Part shown: in pieces, positions 43,959 through 52,162 of the stretch | Layout of the letters: each line of letters opens with the position of its first letter | Position numbering within the stretch: position 1 is the first letter of the stretch | Origin: Nitrospirota bacterium | GTDB taxonomy: Bacteria > Nitrospirota > Nitrospiria > 2-01-FULL-66-17 | Direction: 5' to 3' | NCBI GenBank assembly: GCA_040757335.1 | Contig: JBFLXB010000013.1 | Span: forward strand, 1-64,000 | Length of the DNA: 64,000 nucleotides | Translations under genes and position numbers: made by a program | Notes under the pieces: model-generated | Told to the model about the DNA's origin: nothing | Database searches by the model: none | What the model saw: the letters and a program-made list of their open reading frames with translations, nothing else

Positions 43959-44023
43959 GGGTCGGTCAGGGAAAAGGGATTGGACCCGGGGGTGGACCTT
44001 TGATTGACAGGGTGAGGCGACCG

Positions 44024-44782
44024 ATGTTCAAGGCAGCGACGATGGGTGAAAGATTTCACCGATTCGCAAGTCTACTGAGGGGGCTGGTGGTCTGCGTCCT
44101 GGTCTGGGCCTGCGCCTCGGGACCGCCGTCTTCACCTTTGGTGGTGCACGATCAACTCCCAGCAGGTTCCGACAAAGGCTACATCGAGATCTATTGCACC
44201 GACTGCCTCAGCAATTTCTCGATCTTTCAGCTCGACAACGGCAAAGAGACGCTCATCACAAATTTCATGACCGGGAAAACCGTGGCAGCCGCGACGCAGT
44301 CCACGGATCGATACTTGCGCCTGAAGCGATTGCGCATCGCACAATCCCCCGGTGAGCAGGAGTACGTGGCCGCTTCCACCTCCCCCGCATTCAAAGGTCT
44401 CCCGCAACGGTTTAGGGCCTCGACGGCAAAAGACCACATCACCCCGATCCGGATGGAATTCATCCGCCATACCAACGTGAGCCTGGACTGGAAGACCGTG
44501 GTCGGTCCTCCGCTTCCGTTGACGCCCGCGTCCACGTTCGTCGAGTCGCTCACGAGCGCGCTGTCCGCGCCTGACTGGGGAACTCGATGGTACGCGGCGG
44601 AAGCGCTGCTCATGAGCGGGGAGCAGATACCTGGGGACAGTCCCCTCGCGCAACGTCTACGCGAGCTGTCGGGCGAAGACGGCTACCAACAGTGTCTGAA
44701 ACACGAAGATGTGTTCGTCTGCTCCATGGTTCGCGACCAAGCCACCCGGGCTCTCAAAGCGATCGCGGCGCAGAGTCCGTGA
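44024..44782 (+). CDS. Hypothetical lipoprotein
   Basis: A 252-residue protein. A hydrophobic signal (LLRGLVVCVLVWAC) is followed by ASGPPSSP. The mature part has a CTDC pair (IYCTDCLSNFSIF) and a beta-rich region, then a helical C-terminus (RWYAAEALLMSGEQIPG). The start is uncertain (44000, 44024 or 44042). No family recognised. It precedes the ACT-GlnE gene by 16 bases, but a functional link is not evident. Confidence 0.55.
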   Translation: MFKAATMGERFHRFASLLRGLVVCVLVWACASGPPSSPLVVHDQLPAGSDKGYIEIYCTDCLSNFSIFQLDNGKETLITNFMTGKTVAAATQSTDRYLRLKRLRIAQSPGEQEYVAASTSPAFKGLPQRFRASTAKDHITPIRMEFIRHTNVSLDWKTVVGPPLPLTPASTFVESLTSALSAPDWGTRWYAAEALLMSGEQIPGDSPLAQRLRELSGEDGYQQCLKHEDVFVCSMVRDQATRALKAIAAQSP

Positions 44783-44798: not shown

Positions 44799-47120
44799 AT
44801 GACGCCAAAGAGCGACCGCTCCGCGGTTCGAAGGCTCACGCGCGGCGACGTATCGGCACGCGGCCTCAACGCGCTCTGTCCAGACATCAGCGACGAAGTT
44901 CGCCGGGATTTCCTGCGCCGCGTCGATCGCGAGTACCTGTCCCGCTACACACCGGAGCAGATCGCCTCCCATATCAGACTGGCGGCCCGCCTGGACGCGG
45001 AGAATCCGGTGGAAAGCCTCGTGGTGTCGCGAGGCGGCCGGCGATTCGAGATTGTCATCATCGCGTTCGACTACTTTGCGGAGTTCTCGATCCTCTGCGG
45101 ACTGCTGGCCAGCTTCGGGCTGGACATTCAATCAGGCCAGGTTGATACCCTGCCCGCGCCGCGGACGACGCCCCTGGCGGGCCGCCCCCGGCGGCGGTCG
45201 CCGCACCCGCGGCGCATGATCGTCGACGTGTTCCAGGTTCGCGTGTCGGACGGCACGACGTTTGATGACGCGCGGCAGGCAGCGTTTCGGTCGGAGCTCC
45301 GCGCGCTGATCGCGCTGCTCGAAGGCGGCAAGGTCCACGAGGCCCGGGCCGCGGTGAATCGGCGGGTCGTGGAACGTCTTGCCGAGGCCCGCGCCCCGTT
45401 CATGGGTCCGTTGTATCCCATCGACGTGCGATTCGACAATCACGAGTCCGCCCAGTGGACGGTGATGGAGATCCGCGGCAAAGACACCCCGGCCTTTCTC
45501 TTTGCGTTCTCGAACGCCCTGGCGTTGCGGGGCATCTACATCCATCGGGTCGTGATCGACAACGTGGGGAGCGAAGTTCGCGACCGACTGTTCCTCGCGG
45601 ATTCGCGCGGCCGGAAGATCGCGGCGAAACGCGAACAGGATCTGCTGCGGGCCGCGAGTGTGATGATCAAACAGTTCACCCACTCGTTGCCATCGGCCCC
45701 CGACCCCGCGAGAGCCGTGGTGTCCTTCGACCTGTTCCTCGACAAGTTGATGGAGGGCGGCGCGTCCCGCTCGGTGGCGTTTCTCCTGAAGGCCGATGTT
45801 CGCGACCTCTTGGCGCGCTTGCTGGGCAGCAGCCAATTCCTCTGGGAAGATGTGTTGAGGATGCAGTTTGAGAATCTGCTTCCGATCCTCCGAGACTTCA
45901 AGACCGCGGCGCGGCTGCGAACCAAACGCACGATGGCAATCGAGTTGCACCGGTCCGTGATCCGCGCGCGGACGTTGGATCGCCAGACCGATCTCCTCAA
46001 CCAGTACAAGGACCGGGAGATGTTTCGGATCGACATGGCCCATCTCCTCGGATCTCCCGATCACCTGGTGGAGTTTTCACACGCGCTGACCGATCTTGCC
46101 GACGTGGTGTTGGAGGAGGCGCTGCTCATCTGTCGGACGGCGCTCGATCGACGGTACGGCGTTCCCTTGCTGGAAGGCGGCGCGCCCTGTCCCGTTGCCA
46201 TCTGCGGCCTCGGCAAATTCGGCGGGCGCGAAATGGGGTACGCCTCGGACATCGAAATCCTCTGCGTCTACGGAGGACCGGGACGGACGCGAGGGCGTCA
46301 TCCGACGGAGAACAGCGTCTACTTCGAGCGACTGGTGCAGGAGATTCGCGACGGCATCCAGGCCAGGCAGGAAGGGATCTTTCATATCGACCTGCGGCTC
46401 AGACCGTACGGAAGCGCTGGTCCGTTGGCGTCGCCGCTGGAGCAGATCCGGCGGTACTACAGTGCAACGGGTGAGGCGGCGCCGTTCGAGCGGCAGGCGC
46501 TGATCAAGCTACGTTGGGTCGCGGGCGACGAGGAGTTGGGCCGGGAAGTCGAGGCCCATCGCGATGAGTTCGTTTACAGCGATCAGGCGTGGGACTTGGA
46601 CGCGGCGGTCGACCTCAGACTGCGCCAAATCAGGGAACTGGTGCAGTCCGGGACCACCAACGTGAAATACGGCCCCGGCGGTGTGATCGATATCGAGTAC
46701 GCGGTGCAGTACCTGCAGGTGATGCACGGGAGGGCGCACCGGCAGGTGCGGACGCCGTCGACCTTGGAGGCGCTCGACGGCCTGTGGCGCGTCGGGGTGC
46801 TCTCGCGGAAGGAGCGTGAGCAGCTTCGCGAGGCGTACTTGTTTCTGCGTGCGTTGATCGACGGCCTTCGAATCGTGCGGGGGCACGCGCGCGATCTGGT
46901 CCTGCCGGCTCCGGGCTCGGACGACATGATGTTTCTGGCGCGACGGCTCGGTTATACCGGACCGAGCTGGACCCGCGAGGCTGCCAGGTTGGCGACGACG
47001 ATACGCCGGCACATGGCCACGGCTCACCGTTTCTTCGTCACGCGGTTTGACCGCCGAGACGTTCTGCGCAACGCGGCCCGGATGATGGGCGACGTCCGCG
47101 GCCTCTCGAACAGCGAGTGA
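44799..47120 (+). CDS. GlnE-type nucleotidyltransferase half with N-terminal ACT-like domains
   Basis: A 773-residue protein. Residues 1-280 hold two ACT-like segments of GlnD style (FEIVIIAFDYFAEFSILCGL; TVMEIRGKDTPAFLFAFSNA ending in DSRGRKI). Residues 300-770 form one glutamine-synthetase adenylyltransferase half: the metal site GLGKFGGREMGYASDIEIL (G-G...SDxD-type, though the second acid reads Glu) and KYGPGGVIDIEYAVQYLQ. E. coli GlnE carries two such halves; here the other half is a separate, convergent gene. It may adenylylate a target under amino-acid or nucleotide control. Confidence 0.85.
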   Translation: MTPKSDRSAVRRLTRGDVSARGLNALCPDISDEVRRDFLRRVDREYLSRYTPEQIASHIRLAARLDAENPVESLVVSRGGRRFEIVIIAFDYFAEFSILCGLLASFGLDIQSGQVDTLPAPRTTPLAGRPRRRSPHPRRMIVDVFQVRVSDGTTFDDARQAAFRSELRALIALLEGGKVHEARAAVNRRVVERLAEARAPFMGPLYPIDVRFDNHESAQWTVMEIRGKDTPAFLFAFSNALALRGIYIHRVVIDNVGSEVRDRLFLADSRGRKIAAKREQDLLRAASVMIKQFTHSLPSAPDPARAVVSFDLFLDKLMEGGASRSVAFLLKADVRDLLARLLGSSQFLWEDVLRMQFENLLPILRDFKTAARLRTKRTMAIELHRSVIRARTLDRQTDLLNQYKDREMFRIDMAHLLGSPDHLVEFSHALTDLADVVLEEALLICRTALDRRYGVPLLEGGAPCPVAICGLGKFGGREMGYASDIEILCVYGGPGRTRGRHPTENSVYFERLVQEIRDGIQARQEGIFHIDLRLRPYGSAGPLASPLEQIRRYYSATGEAAPFERQALIKLRWVAGDEELGREVEAHRDEFVYSDQAWDLDAAVDLRLRQIRELVQSGTTNVKYGPGGVIDIEYAVQYLQVMHGRAHRQVRTPSTLEALDGLWRVGVLSRKEREQLREAYLFLRALIDGLRIVRGHARDLVLPAPGSDDMMFLARRLGYTGPSWTREAARLATTIRRHMATAHRFFVTRFDRRDVLRNAARMMGDVRGLSNSE

Positions 47121-48781
47121 AAGACCTGATGGACCCGGCCCGCGTGCAGCCGATATTCGTCGAGGAGTTGCTGGGTGGCGGTCGCATCCGGCTTGTCGCG
47201 GTAGTCCAATCGCAACGCGCAGATTCGTAACTCCTCCGGATCAATGGGGAGGGAATGGGTCTGCAGTTCATGCACCATCTGGAGGCGATGCTCCACGTTC
47301 CGGAGAAACCGATACGCGTCCGTCAACTGTCGAGAGGTGTCGGGTTCCAACAACTGATGGCGTCGAAGCGTGTCGAGCGCTTTCAGGGTATTACGCTCTC
47401 GGATAACCGGTAGCCTTCCACCGAAGAAGGCCTGGATCGACTGAACAATGAACTCGATTTCGCGAATGCCGCCGACTCCCAGTTTGACGTTCCGCTCCAA
47501 TTCGCCTTTGGCCCGTATCTTGCTGTTAATCGTCTCCTTCACTGCGCGGACCTCTGCGAGGTCGTTGAGCGAAAACGGCTGACGGAAGACGAACGACGAC
47601 ACCCGGCGGAGGAACTCCTGCCCGAGCCGTCGGTTTCCTGCCACGGGCCACGCCTTCAGTAAGGCCAGTCGCTCCCAGGTGGCTCCGCGTTTGGTGTAAT
47701 ACCTGAGCGCCTCGCTGAGGTCGGAGGCGATGGGGCCGAATTGGCCTTCGGGGCGGAGGCGCAAATCCGTCCGATACACGTACCCCTCGTTGGTCACCTC
47801 GGTCAGCGCCGCGGTGATGGTTTGCGAGAGCCGTTGAAAATATTCCTGGTTCGAGATCCGCGTGGTTGGGCCGCCGGACGGTCGGCCGCTCGTGCTGCCG
47901 TCCGCTGAGTCGTAGAGGTAGATCAGATCAACATCAGAACTGAAGTTGAGCTCTCCGCCCCCGAGTTTTCCCATCCCCACGACCGTAAACGCCGCTCGGC
48001 CGGGTCGTTTCCCGCGAGGCCTCCGCATCGGCGGGCCGTACTGCGCTCGGAGCAACTGGTCGCACAACTCGTAGATCTGTTGAATGAGAACCTCCGCCAG
48101 GACCGTGAGCGCTCCGGTGGTCTGAGCCACGCTCGATCGTCCCAGGAGGTCGCTGACCCCGATGCGCAGGAGCTCCTTTCGCTTGAACACGCTGAGGGTC
48201 CTCAGCTGTCCTTCCCGGGTCTTGAGCGTTCGCAACACCCCGGACAGTTCGCGGGCGAGCTCAACCCTGGTCCGGCGACCTTCGAGGACTCCGGGGCCCG
48301 CGATCCAGTAGAGATACGGGGGAGTTCGAATCAGGATCTCGGAGAGGAAGGGGCTGCTGGCCAGGAGCTTGGCGAGCAACCACAACGTGTAGGGAGACGC
48401 CTTCAAATAGGAAAAGAGTTGGGCCTTGTTGTAGGACGCCTTGGTGAAGCGCTCGAAATAGGTGAGCGCCTGATCGGGATCGGGCGATCGCCCCAGGCAG
48501 TCGAGCAACTCGTCGATCACCTCGGCCAGGAGGTGCCGCACGCGCGGTTCATCGGCGATGAGTTGGAGATTCGCGTCGGCCTTGGCGACGTCTTTGAATC
48601 GGTAGGGCGTCAGCAACGCGGCGACCTGGTCGGGTTCCAGGCGAGCCGCGAGCAGGAGGTCCTTGGGCGTCAGTGGAGGCAAGATGTTCCGTGCACCGGT
48701 GGTCCGACGACCTCCCGGGTCGTCGCGATTGGAGAACCGAATTGCATTATAGGAAGAACGGGTAGTGGAGACAACACGCAT
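47024..48781 (-). CDS. GlnE-type glutamine synthetase adenylyltransferase half
   Basis: About 585 residues with one nucleotidyltransferase domain: VGMGKLGGGELNFSSDVDLIYLY (both acids intact), RTDLRLRPEGQFGP, and KLGVGGIREIEFIVQSIQAF followed by the helical YRFLRNVEHRLQMVHE. Full GlnE has about 950 residues with two halves; this is one half plus the GlnE N-terminal helical segment. Start options are 48793, 48781 or TTG 48682; a promoter at 48746-48774 favours the last. It converges on and overlaps by 97 bases the ACT-containing half. Confidence 0.85.
   Translation of the reverse strand: MRVVSTTRSSYNAIRFSNRDDPGGRRTTGARNILPPLTPKDLLLAARLEPDQVAALLTPYRFKDVAKADANLQLIADEPRVRHLLAEVIDELLDCLGRSPDPDQALTYFERFTKASYNKAQLFSYLKASPYTLWLLAKLLASSPFLSEILIRTPPYLYWIAGPGVLEGRRTRVELARELSGVLRTLKTREGQLRTLSVFKRKELLRIGVSDLLGRSSVAQTTGALTVLAEVLIQQIYELCDQLLRAQYGPPMRRPRGKRPGRAAFTVVGMGKLGGGELNFSSDVDLIYLYDSADGSTSGRPSGGPTTRISNQEYFQRLSQTITAALTEVTNEGYVYRTDLRLRPEGQFGPIASDLSEALRYYTKRGATWERLALLKAWPVAGNRRLGQEFLRRVSSFVFRQPFSLNDLAEVRAVKETINSKIRAKGELERNVKLGVGGIREIEFIVQSIQAFFGGRLPVIRERNTLKALDTLRRHQLLEPDTSRQLTDAYRFLRNVEHRLQMVHELQTHSLPIDPEELRICALRLDYRDKPDATATQQLLDEYRLHAGRVHQVFHSLFERPRTSPIIRAALRRTSRRSNRVTKKR
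48746..48774 (-). promoter_or_regulatory. Promoter inside 5' region of glnE-type gene
   Basis: Minus strand: TTGTCT, 17 bases, perfect TATAAT. Transcription would begin near 48739, downstream of the ATG candidates at 48781 and 48793. This suggests a TTG start at 48682 or a second promoter further up. Confidence 0.55.
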
Positions 48782-48860
48782 CCGGACGGTCATGCCGCCG
48801 GGTGGTTTCTTTTCCCGAGGGTCTCGGCTACCATGTGGCGACCATTCGGATCTGCGCACG

Positions 48861-49946
48861 ATGGCTGACGTCCAACGCGACCTTCCCCGCGACATTCTCG
48901 CGGTCCTCTTCATCGGTGCCTTGATCGGTGTGTCGCTCTGGATTCTGCGCCCCTTCATTGCGGCGATCATTTGGGCGATGACGATCGTAGTGGCGAGCTG
49001 GCCCGTCATGCTGGCGGTGCAGGCCCGGCTGTGGGGCAAACGGACCCTCGCGGTGATGGTGATGACGCTGGTCCTACTGGGTGCTCTGATCCTCCCGTTT
49101 CTGGCCGTGATCGGCACGATCGTGGCGAACGCGGACCCGATCGTGGAGTGGGTCCGCTCCATCAGTTTCGACGCGCTGCCCACTCCACCGGAGTGGCTAC
49201 GCGCGCTTCCGCTGGTCGGCGCGCCGATCGCCGAAGGCTGGGAGCGGATCGCGGCGGAGGGGATTCCGGACCTGTTCGCGAAAGCCGCGCCCTACGCGGA
49301 CGACGTGGCCAAGTGGTTCGTCGCCCAGGTCGGCAACCTTGGCGTCTTGTTTGCGCACTCCTTGCTGACCATTGTCATCGCCGCGATCCTGTACGCCCAG
49401 GGCGAGACCGCGGCCGCGAGCGTGCGACGCTTCGCGGAACGGCTGGCGGGTGCGACCGGAGACGCGGCGGTCCGTCTGGCGGCGCAAGCCATTCGGGGCG
49501 TGGCGCTGGGCGTTGTGGTCACCGCATTGATCCAGGCGGGGATCGGCGGCCTGGGCCTTGCCATCGCCGGGGTGCCCTTCGCCGCGGTCCTCACCGGCCT
49601 CATGTTTTTCTTAGCCGTAGCCCAGTTGGGGGCCGTGCCCGTGTTGGTGCCCGCGGTGGTGTGGCTCTATTGGCGCGGCGACCCGACCTGGGGGACCTTC
49701 CTGCTGGTCGTGACAGTTGTGGTCGGCACGCTCGATAACATCCTGCGTCCGTTGTTGATCAAACAGGGCGCAAATCTTCCCCTCTTGCTCGTGTTTTCCG
49801 GCGTCATCGGCGGTCTGATCGCGTTCGGGCTCATCGGGATCTTCGTGGGCCCGGTCGTCCTCGCCGTGGCGTATTCGATGTTCGAGGCATGGGTCAACGA
49901 AGGGCGCCAGGCCCAGCCAGCGCCCGCGGAACGAGAGCCGCGCTAA
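48861..49946 (+). CDS. AI-2E-family membrane transporter (YdiK/PerM type)
   Basis: A 361-residue protein with about seven to eight TM helices: AVLFIGALIGVSLWILRPFIAAIIWAM at the N-terminus and the C-terminal cluster VVVGTLDNILRPLLIKQGANLPLLLVFSGVIGGLIAFGLIG, the signature segment (PLLI) of the family. Members have been linked to export of autoinducer-2 or to ion antiport, so the substrate is open. ATG 48861 is chosen; the frame is open to 48765 without hydrophobic content. Confidence 0.88.
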   Translation: MADVQRDLPRDILAVLFIGALIGVSLWILRPFIAAIIWAMTIVVASWPVMLAVQARLWGKRTLAVMVMTLVLLGALILPFLAVIGTIVANADPIVEWVRSISFDALPTPPEWLRALPLVGAPIAEGWERIAAEGIPDLFAKAAPYADDVAKWFVAQVGNLGVLFAHSLLTIVIAAILYAQGETAAASVRRFAERLAGATGDAAVRLAAQAIRGVALGVVVTALIQAGIGGLGLAIAGVPFAAVLTGLMFFLAVAQLGAVPVLVPAVVWLYWRGDPTWGTFLLVVTVVVGTLDNILRPLLIKQGANLPLLLVFSGVIGGLIAFGLIGIFVGPVVLAVAYSMFEAWVNEGRQAQPAPAEREPR

Positions 49947-49958
49947 GCGCGGTGTGTG

Positions 49959-50726
49959 TCAGGCATCACGTTTCTTTATCGCCTCCAGGAACGGACCAAC
50001 CACGTCCATCGGAAACGGAAAAAGGATGGTATTGCTCTTTTCGTTCGCCATGCCGGCGATGGTCTGCAGGTACCGCAACTGCAGGGCCTGGGGGCTGGCG
50101 CTGATTTTCTCCGCGGCCTGCACCAGTTTTTCCGCGGCCTGCAGTTCGCCCTCCGCGTGGATCACCTTGGCGCGTCGTTCGCGTTCGGCCTCGGCCTGGC
50201 GGGCGATGGCGCGCACCATGGTGGGATCGATGTCCACGTGTTTGATCTCCACGCTCGAGACCTTGATGCCCCAGGCGTCGGTCGAGGCGTCCAGGAGCCG
50301 CTGAATGTCTATGTTGAGCTTGTCGCGTTCCGCCAGCATCTCGTCGAGCTCGTGCTTGCCCAGCACGCTGCGCAACGTGGTCTGCGCGAGTTGCGAGGTG
50401 GCGGCCAGAAAATCCTCGACCTGGATGATGGCGCGTTGCGGATCGATCACGCGGAAGTACACCACCGCGTTGACCTTGACCGACACGTTGTCGCGCGAAA
50501 TCACGTCCTGCGGCGGGACGTCCATGACCACGGTGCGCAGGTCCACGCGCACCATTTGTTGAATCCCCGGGATCACGATGATGAGCCCAGGCCCCTTGAC
50601 ACGCCAAAAACGGCCGAGCAGGAAAATCACGCCCCGCTGATACTCGCGCAGAACGCGGATCGACGCGAAGATCAGGAGCGCGAGCACCACGAGCAGGACG
50701 CTGGTCGAGACGAATCCCATATTCAT
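49959..50726 (-). CDS. SPFH/stomatin-like slipin
   Basis: 255 residues. An N-terminal membrane hairpin ([20 protein letters not shown]) is followed by an SPFH/band-7 domain ([40 protein letters not shown]) and a coiled-coil ([20 protein letters not shown]). It scaffolds membrane microdomains together with the NfeD protease. It lies one base after the nfeD stop, an operon arrangement conserved in many bacteria. Confidence 0.93.
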
Positions 50727-50727
50727 G

Positions 50728-52162
50728 TCACCGGCCCTCCGTATTGAGCGGTTCCACCACCAACACCAAGCCGTCGCGGCCGATCACCCTGACGCGCTGG
50801 CCGGCCGCGACGGGAACTCTGGTCCGTGCCTGCCACTCTTCACTGTGGATGCGAATGCGACCCGCGTCCGCGAATGCCTCCAGCGCCACACCGCTGGCTC
50901 CCAGCAGCTCCTCGGCGCCGCTCACCACGGCGCGGCGGCGGGCTTTGAGGGCCAGAGTGACGACCCCGGTGAAGAACGCCGCGCTGAGGGCTGCCACGGT
51001 CAGGACCAACGGCCACGCCACCGTGTATCCTTCGACGTCGGTGTCCATCAAGATGATGGATCCGACCACGAAGGCGATCACCCCGCCGATCCCGAGCGCG
51101 CCAAAGCTCGGGAGAAACGCCTCTCCAACCATGAACGCGATGCCGAGGAGGATGAGCCCCAAACCCGCGTAGCTGATAGGCAGCACCTGGAAGGCGTAGA
51201 GCGCCAACAGCAGACAGATGCCGCCCATCACGCCGGGCAGCACGTACCCCGGGTTCCACAGCTCGAAGAACAGCCCGTAGACCCCCAGCAACAGCAAGAT
51301 GTAGGCGATGTTGGGGTCGGTGATCACCGACAGCAAACGGTTGCGCCAGTCGGGCTCGAACGCATCGACCTGCATCGCGGTGGTGGAGAGCGTGATGGCG
51401 CGACCGTCGATCGTGACCGAGCGTCCGTCGAGCTTGGTGAGGAGATCGGGAACGTCGGTCGCCATCAGGTCCGCGACGTTCATCGTAACGGCCTCGTCCG
51501 CCGGGAGGCTTGCGGCCGTGCGGACGGCGCGTTCCGCCCATTCCACGTTGCGCCCGCGCAACTGAGCCAGGCCGCGAATGTAGGCGATCGCGTCGTTCAA
51601 CGCCTTTTCTTCCATGCCGGGCTTGACGGTCTGGTCCTTATCGTCCGATTGCCGGCTCTCTTCCTTGCTCTCGTCCCGGGTGGGTTTTCGTTTGCCGGGA
51701 GCGGGTTCCTCGCTGCCGGGTGCTGGCGCGCCGATCTGCACGGGCGTTGCGGCTCCCAGATTGGTCCCAGGCGCCATCGCGGCGATGTGACTCGCATACA
51801 GAATGTACGTCCCGGCGCTCGCGGCGCGCGCACCGGACGGCGCGACAAACGTCGCCACTGGGACCGGGGACGCGAGGATGTCTTTGATGATCGCCCGCGT
51901 GGCGGAATCGAGTCCGCCCGGGGTATCAAGCCGCAGGATCACGAGCATGGTTCCACGGGCGTGCGCCCTGGCCAAGCCGCGATGGAGGTAGTCGGCGGTG
52001 GCCGGACCGATCGGGCCGTCCCACGCCAAGCAACACGGCGCTGGGCGCGGAGCTCGCGGTCACAGCGACTTGTTCGGCCGCAAAGACTAGCGGACCAATC
52101 GCGAGTGCTCCCAGCCCGAGCGCAAGCCAGTCTTGCAGGCGAGGTTGACGCCCCATAGCCAC
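50728..52162 (-). pseudogene. nfeD: NfeD-type membrane serine protease, frameshifted
   Basis: The N-terminal signal segment (52162 to about 52031: LALGLGALAIGPLVFAAEQV, then TASSAPSAVL) lies in one frame. The ClpP-like protease (WDGPIGPATADYLHRGLARA, catalytic region GARAASAGTYIL, then four TM helices and an OB-fold NfeD tail) lies in another, 50728-52029. One extra base (52030) separates them; removing it restores AVLLAWDGPIG, the normal junction. The gene is either broken, misread, or recoded. With slipin it forms the NfeD/slipin pair. Confidence 0.8.

Follow-up and report, generated by a model that had tools for sequence, protein, structure and literature searches.

A glnE divided between two genes in a Nitrospirota bacterium, with a GlnD-type double ACT module on the predicted adenylylating half

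Adenylylation of glutamine synthetase (GS) is textbook material as a two-cycle cascade: glutamine is sensed by GlnD, and PII relays the signal to one bifunctional GlnE. The window analysed here, 64,000 nucleotides of a Nitrospirota contig (JBFLXB010000013.1), holds instead two genes that each encode half of a GlnE, one of them extended by ACT-like segments. The locus raises the question of whether the two proteins jointly do the job of GlnE on GS, and what signal controls them. We put at roughly 0.7 the probability that they do, with the adenylylating (AT) half gated by an amino acid at its ACT domains and the adenylyl-removing (AR) half separate. Labelling either Nitrospira gene simply 'glnE' would mask which of the opposite reactions it performs.

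Two half-enzymes and their genomic setting

The first-pass annotation described two convergent GlnE-half genes at 44,799 to 48,781 with one GlnE-type domain each, and this description holds (Table 1). Both reading frames are open as located and overlap at their 3' ends, and PF03710 and PF08335 are matched once in each protein. The plus-strand protein matches PF03710 over residues 338-585 (1.6e-42, 146.1 bits against a cut-off of 24) and PF08335 at 3.5e-15. Corresponding values for the minus-strand protein, in which profile search found no ACT domain, are 1.1e-61 (208.9 bits, cut-off 24) and 9.7e-32. The NCBIfam equivalog cut-offs for canonical bifunctional GlnE were not reached (best scores 425.6 against 724 and 194.8 against 625 bits), and an Rfam search near both genes gave no match.

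Table 1. Features of the split glnE locus (positions in the window)
Feature	Position	Strand	Basis
ACT-AT protein, 773 aa: GlnD-type double-ACT module and AT-type GlnE catalytic half (predicted)	44799..47120	+	ORF, profiles, model, residues
GlnD-like sensor module, residues 41-299	44919..45695	+	colinear with own GlnD C-terminus
ACT 1, residues ~71-175; loop 124-136 low-confidence	45009..45323	+	AlphaFold2 model
ACT 2, residues ~209-299	45423..45695	+	model; ACT-like PDB chains 9c7n by Foldseek
GlnE nucleotidyltransferase domain PF03710, ACT-AT protein	45810..46553	+	profile match
Catalytic motif GKFGGREMGYASDIE (residues 472-486) with AT-type Gly480 and metal ligands Asp484/Glu486	46212..46256	+	
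GlnD_UR_UTase helical domain PF08335, ACT-AT protein	46656..47036	+	profile match
AR protein, 585 aa: single GlnE half, predicted adenylyl-removase type as in the canonical N-terminal half	47024..48781	-	ORF, profiles, tree, residues
Tail-to-tail overlap of both genes, 97 bp	47024..47120	.	in variable C-terminal tails of both proteins
GlnD_UR_UTase helical domain PF08335, AR protein	47108..47506	-	profile match
GlnE domain PF03710, AR protein	47606..48376	-	profile match
Catalytic motif GKLGGGELNFSSDVD (residues 271-285) with AR-type Asn279 and metal ligands Asp283/Asp285	47927..47971	-	

The window genome is a draft assembly of 61 contigs rated 99% complete. A complete bifunctional glnE elsewhere, which the first-pass annotation had set against a split enzyme, was not found by profile search of this 99%-complete genome, nor was a third GlnE half; PF03710 matched only one further sequence, a GlnD fragment. 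Searches for glnA, glnB and glnD recovered a single GSI gene (glnA) with the adenylylatable tyrosine (motif KDLYDL, EKDLYDLEAEEA), a full GlnD, and PII proteins with the RGAEY loop. The target tyrosine of GS is also kept in N. moscoviensis, N. defluvii and the Nitrospinota, Spirochaetota and Chloroflexota relatives.

Assignment of the AR and AT roles

N169 of E. coli GlnE is essential for AR only, and the corresponding AT residue, G697 in E. coli, is usually glycine (PMC4454073). The minus-strand protein has the AR-diagnostic asparagine (N279), found at this site in 21/21 split AR halves, and the ACT protein has the AT-diagnostic glycine (G480), found in 31/31 ACT halves. Three AR-only invariants (R324, Q385 and Q391 in E. 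coli) are kept in the minus-strand protein, together with the metal ligands D283, D285 and D339; the same invariants are missing from the ACT halves and from nearly all canonical C-terminal halves. It had been noticed earlier that the metal motif of the plus-strand half reads SDIEI instead of SDVDL. The reading is correct, the second metal ligand being glutamate in every one of the 31 ACT halves and aspartate in all other GlnE halves compared, but this is a tolerated variant (Dx[DE] is allowed) fixed in the subfamily and therefore does not indicate altered or lost activity. A dead active site was rejected, as the three catalytic acids (D484, E486 and D531) are all present and invariant in the family.

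Phylogenetic analysis grouped the split AR halves with canonical N-terminal halves (support 97/90). The ACT halves formed a clade of their own (100/100) beside the canonical C-terminal halves and not inside their clade, a placement relative to the N and C halves that hinges on a distant GlnD root (SH-aLRT 88). Tree and HMMs put both proteins in GlnE, so that the grouping with unrelated nucleotidyltransferases considered earlier was rejected. Overall similarity is ambiguous for the ACT half and speaks against our reading of it as AT: HMM scores are near-equal for the canonical N and C halves (252 and 260 bits), and Foldseek places it closer to the AR structure (1v4a, TM 0.83) than to the AT structure (3k7d, 0.72). 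The case for the AT role is therefore made by the diagnostic residue, by the loss of AR residues, by elimination and by position in fused relatives. Chloroflexota and Planctomycetota encode AR-ACT-AT in one protein of 1200-1300 aa, with the ACT pair between an AR-type and an ACT-type half, and the fused order in Spirochaetota is ACT-AT-AR. Judged from these residues and arrangements, the minus-strand protein is very probably the AR (deadenylylation) and the ACT protein the AT (adenylylation), which supports the division of activities proposed in the first-pass annotation.

The ACT module and control of the pair

The two GlnD-like ACT segments first noticed at the N-terminus of the plus-strand protein were recovered by profile, residues 28-285 matching TIGR01693 positions 613-844 (4.9e-26). 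The AlphaFold2 model (mean pLDDT 84) contains two ACT folds, and the module is colinear with the C-terminus of the same genome's GlnD over 240 residues (26% identity, 8e-10). Pfam ACT models gave only E 0.17 with the window protein; PF24931 was matched by 20 of the 30 members of the family alignment. Each ACT keeps an invariant aspartate in its ligand loop (D91 and D229). The usual glycine of the beta1-alpha1 loop (DxPGL motif) is replaced by alanine in both window ACTs and retained in some relatives; this replacement could weaken or alter ligand binding and counts against amino acid gating. On balance the module probably binds a regulatory amino acid, and we lean slightly towards glutamine as the ligand.

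An ACT-sensed signal had been suggested at the outset, and it gains support from the colinear GlnD homology and from the fused relatives. Three Chloroflexota with the fused form gave neither a GlnD nor a PII match above cut-off, and two spirochaetes gave no GlnD match above cut-off, all of these GlnD-less relatives being MAGs or drafts. The ACT module in the three Chloroflexota therefore cannot merely assist PII.

In the mechanism that we infer, the minus-strand AR protein would be an autonomous deadenylylating half, and the plus-strand AT protein an adenylylating half that responds directly to an amino acid bound at its N-terminal double ACT. When that amino acid, most likely glutamine, is abundant, its predicted binding to the ACT pair would raise AT activity, the expected sign of the effect; the conserved GS tyrosine would then be adenylylated and GS activity would fall. 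The AR protein would reverse this adenylylation, in the window genome probably still under the action of PII-UMP. The presence of GlnD and PII means that the ACT pair need not be the main sensor there. The GlnD-like module on the AT protein suggests a second glutamine-sensing route beside the PII cascade. We see about an even chance that the adenylylating enzyme senses glutamine directly via a GlnD-derived ACT pair, in some phyla (Chloroflexota) independently of GlnD and PII, and that in the Nitrospira class the opposing activities sit on separate, separately controllable proteins.

The alternative that survives best is that the two proteins associate physically as a split GlnE under full control of PII and PII-UMP, as in E. 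coli, with the ACT pair as a structural or assembly element at the former R linker and little ligand sensing. ACT pairs often dimerise. The full GlnD and RGAEY-bearing PII proteins, the replaced loop glycines, and the fused relatives with the ACT pair between the halves, at the site of the canonical R domain, are all consistent with such an enzyme. However, the module persists in the Chloroflexota without detected GlnD or PII, the spirochaete ACT pair lies outside the linker, and the invariant loop aspartates fit a retained binding site, and we regard this alternative as unlikely. The arrangement does differ from the usual PII-controlled GlnE, as first annotated, but it is class-wide and PII control remains compatible with it here.

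Relatives, origin and known systems

Split GlnE is common to the whole class of the window genome (Nitrospira, Manganitrophus), complete genomes included, and occurs in the closed or chromosome-level records of N. moscoviensis, N. defluvii, Manganitrophus and bin371. This class includes the nitrifying Nitrospira and is that of the main nitrite oxidisers. The AR and ACT halves are adjacent in 31 loci, where 30 pairs are divergent and one, in the window, is convergent; a search among close relatives for this orientation covered the two genomes of the same order, and GlnE matched in neither. An AR-ACT-AT ancestor may have undergone fission, so that one GlnE was split, or the AT half may have been replaced; comparison of these candidate origins gave an AU p of 0.199.

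The ACT halves form a deep separate clade, with glutamate in place of aspartate at a metal ligand and several further invariants of their own, which might instead reflect an ACT half that modifies a protein other than GS, with the AR half as a relic. This is very improbable: the GS tyrosine is retained in the genomes concerned, the ACT-bearing glnE adjoins glnA in four relatives (fused genes of one spirochaete and of the same three Chloroflexota that gave no GlnD or PII match), the AR and ACT halves lie side by side in the 31 loci, and the AR half retains every diagnostic residue. Misassembly or misannotation that cut or inverted an ordinary glnE, to which the lone convergent pair and the 61-contig draft might point, was rejected as the cause of the split and is scarcely credible, given the same split in closed and chromosome-level genomes and halves that come from different clades, one with ACT; the inverted gene order is the only part that could be an artefact.

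Canonical bifunctional GlnE (E. coli GlnE, 946 aa; NF008292) likewise has two catalytic halves with nucleotidyltransferase and helical domains, and its diagnostic Asn/Gly and predicted GSI tyrosine substrate are identical to those of the split pair. It is, however, one polypeptide with a small central R domain, whereas the split pair is two, with an N-terminal double ACT on an AT half from a distinct, DxE-bearing clade. GlnD, the PII uridylyltransferase (TIGR01693), shares the module order pre-ACT helix, ACT1, linker, ACT2, but there the module follows the nucleotidyltransferase and HD domains and the target is PII; the ACT-AT protein has it N-terminal to a GlnE half and lacks HD. A literature search for GlnE combined with an ACT domain found no paper in the collection covered.

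On our reading, a GlnD sensor module would be fused to the adenylylating half, and opposite activities would lie on separate proteins, across the class to which the main nitrite oxidisers belong, while Chloroflexota would have an apparently PII-free form of the GS switch. With AR and AT naturally on separate proteins, the avoidance of futile cycling by the two activities could also be studied. The nearest laboratory counterparts are unidirectional AT fragments (uAT), GlnE truncations that adenylylate GS without AR (PMC9249168); these are stand-alone like ACT-AT but engineered and without ACT, whereas ACT-AT is natural, has a sensor and is paired with an AR protein of its own. GlnD-type ACT repeats and a proposed tie to glutamine synthetase are also known from the ACR proteins of plants, such as ACR11 (PMC3173338), but these are plastid proteins without a catalytic domain, unlike ACT-AT.

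The two genes and their genome

The first-pass annotation had described GlnE as split into two convergent genes, one with GlnD-like ACT segments, and closer analysis bears this out. Both open reading frames are intact, lie tail to tail and share 97 bp (see table); Pfam matches PF03710 (GlnE) and PF08335 in both proteins, and by NCBIfam, residues 28-285 of the plus-strand protein match the ACT-bearing C-terminal part of GlnD. The overlap is placed in the variable tails of both proteins because BLASTP matches to relatives mostly stop at about residue 752 in the plus-strand protein and at residues 557-585 in the minus-strand protein. The ACT gene follows 16 bp behind another plus-strand ORF, with which it perhaps forms one operon.

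Features around the split GlnE genes (window coordinates)
Position	Strand	Feature
44000-44782	+	ORF, weakly HEAT-repeat-like
44799-47120	+	ACT gene: double-ACT module and one GlnE half
47024-48781	-	Minus gene: stand-alone GlnE half
48858-49946		AI-2E-family transporter gene, divergent from the minus gene
49959-52029	-	Two ORFs beyond the transporter; slipin/NfeD pair by eye

A search of the whole genome (3.56 Mb, 61 contigs, 99% complete) recovered only these two GlnE halves and no bifunctional glnE elsewhere, the finding that would have counted against a split; a third PF03710 match is a fragment inside the full-length GlnD on contig 31. Besides this GlnD, the glnA and glnB products proposed as search targets are present. 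The single GSI carries the motif EKDLYDL and therefore the adenylylation Tyr, and there are seven PII-family matches on contigs 3, 8, 9, 23, 37 and 48, two of which, nearly identical to each other, are standard PII with RGAEY. The window's order contains only two other genomes (G148, G149). Both retain a glnA of about 90% identity, along with GlnD-type ACT matches; no GlnE match was found in either, and at 65 and 88% completeness loss is not established.

Predicted roles of the two halves

In a careful maximum likelihood tree of 65 halves, the comparison with canonical halves suggested by the first-pass annotation, the minus gene and its kin cluster with canonical N-terminal, adenylyl-removase (AR) halves (97/90), the canonical C-terminal halves group together (95/90), and all ACT halves form their own clade (100/100). 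Profile HMMs likewise identify the minus gene as clearly N-type (467 versus 353 bits, N versus C). The ACT half is almost equidistant (252 versus 260 bits), and diagnostic residues were therefore used to assign roles. N169 of E. coli GlnE is essential for AR and dispensable for adenylyltransferase (AT) activity, its AT equivalent is usually Gly (G697), and this is the only class-specific pair found by Khater and Mohanty (2015, PMC4454073). With E. coli GlnE as the aligned reference, the position is Asn279 in the minus gene and Gly480 in the ACT gene, and it is Asn in 21/21 split AR halves and Gly in 31/31 ACT halves. The rule has exceptions, since canonical C halves of Nitrospirota often have Thr instead of Gly. 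The AR-only invariants R324, Q385 and Q391 (E. coli numbering) are kept in the minus gene and in AR-type halves of fused proteins, and their equivalents are missing from ACT halves and nearly all canonical C halves. From the diagnostic Asn/Gly and these invariants we conclude that the minus gene is the predicted AR and the plus gene the predicted AT. Foldseek prefers the AR domain for the ACT half (1v4a, TM 0.83) over the AT domain (3k7d, 0.72), which counts weakly against the AT role.

The metal motif had been reported as SDIEI in place of SDVDL. The Glu variant is real, the second metal ligand being Glu in all 31 ACT halves and Asp in all other GlnE halves compared; ACT halves never vary at the first and third catalytic Asp. 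As Dx[DE] occurs generally in this fold, SDIEI reads as the mark of a subfamily and active-site damage is rejected. The window pair falls outside the bifunctional GlnE equivalog; as judged from sequence, it appears to be a variant form that functions like GlnE.

The ACT module and proposed control of glutamine synthetase

Over 240 residues (26%, 8e-10) the ACT module aligns colinearly with the C-terminal end of the GlnD encoded in this genome, and the alignment takes in the linker as well as the helix that precedes ACT1. AlphaFold2 with 30 sequences predicts two ACT folds in the module, with pLDDT mostly 85-94. The ACT pair of GlnD is regarded as a glutamine sensor (PMC3173338). Each ACT has an invariant loop Asp, but the loop Gly is replaced by Ala in both ACTs of the window protein and by Ser or Ala in most Nitrospira, so ligand binding is likely but not certain; the Gly is retained in at least one ACT by Manganitrophus, Chloroflexota, Planctomycetota and one spirochaete. 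Most likely, an ACT pair occupied by an amino acid, probably glutamine, would drive the AT half to adenylylate glutamine synthetase (GS), and the separate AR half would reverse this by stripping AMP from GS. A lone AT half could plausibly be active, since GS in Azorhizobium is inactivated by engineered fragments that contain AT alone (PMC9249168). By analogy with E. coli, PII and PII-UMP are probably still active in the window organism, at least on AR.

In three Chloroflexota glnA adjoins the fused gene divergently, with about 0.4-0.6 kb between matches, and in one spirochaete it does so on the same strand at about 130 bp. In N. defluvii and N. moscoviensis glnD and glnA are adjacent, and the split pair lies about 9 and 17 kb beyond them. 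The closed record of Manganitrophus sp. GAC4 has its glnA in two abutting frames, covering residues 1-291 and 291-469, which probably reflects a frameshift in that record. No GlnD over cut-off was found in the three Chloroflexota and two Spirochaetota genomes, and no PII-family match at all in the three Chloroflexota, in a search whose control found PII in 13/14 reference genomes. Apart from the ACT module, no nitrogen sensor linked to the system was recognised in these relatives; they are MAGs or drafts, so that single absences are weak and the joint absence in five genomes less so.

Distribution and origin

GlnE is present in 107/148 Nitrospirota genomes. Among the matches listed, the window's class has separate frames of about 540-610 aa (a few longer) and 745-870 aa (one of 954), and other classes mostly have single frames of about 930-1170 aa with both halves. 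A scan of genome contigs gave 39 loci, in Nitrospira, Manganitrophus, other Nitrospirota, one Nitrospinota MAG, Chloroflexota, Planctomycetota and Spirochaetota, including the complete genomes of N. moscoviensis and N. defluvii. Split loci holding both halves are divergent (head to head) in 30 of 31 cases, the window being the only convergent one. Chloroflexota and Planctomycetota encode one fused protein of 1200-1310 aa, ordered AR-type half, ACT pair, ACT-type half; in Spirochaetota the order is ACT pair, ACT-type half, AR-type half (about 1250-1290 aa). One spirochaete frame of 1602 aa (G356, C1, 1409318-1413415) has a GlnE half, an ACT region and a second GlnE half, the order of Chloroflexota and not of the ACT-first spirochaetes. 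In these three phyla the ACT form is a minority (2/81 Chloroflexota, 7/79 Planctomycetota and about 6/80 Spirochaetota genomes, hand-counted as those with matches extending from the ACT segment into the catalytic part, with the probe genome included in each phylum). A search of literature available without subscription found no paper combining GlnE with 'ACT domain'.

The best tree favours a canonical GlnE whose AT half was displaced by an ACT-type AT, as split AR halves group there with canonical N halves and not with AR-type halves of ACT-fused proteins. The pair may instead descend from an AR-ACT-AT protein split in two, a topology that the AU test does not reject (p 0.199). In one Nitrospira MAG (L034, 491-2223) the AR half itself lies in two frames, possibly through a sequencing frameshift.
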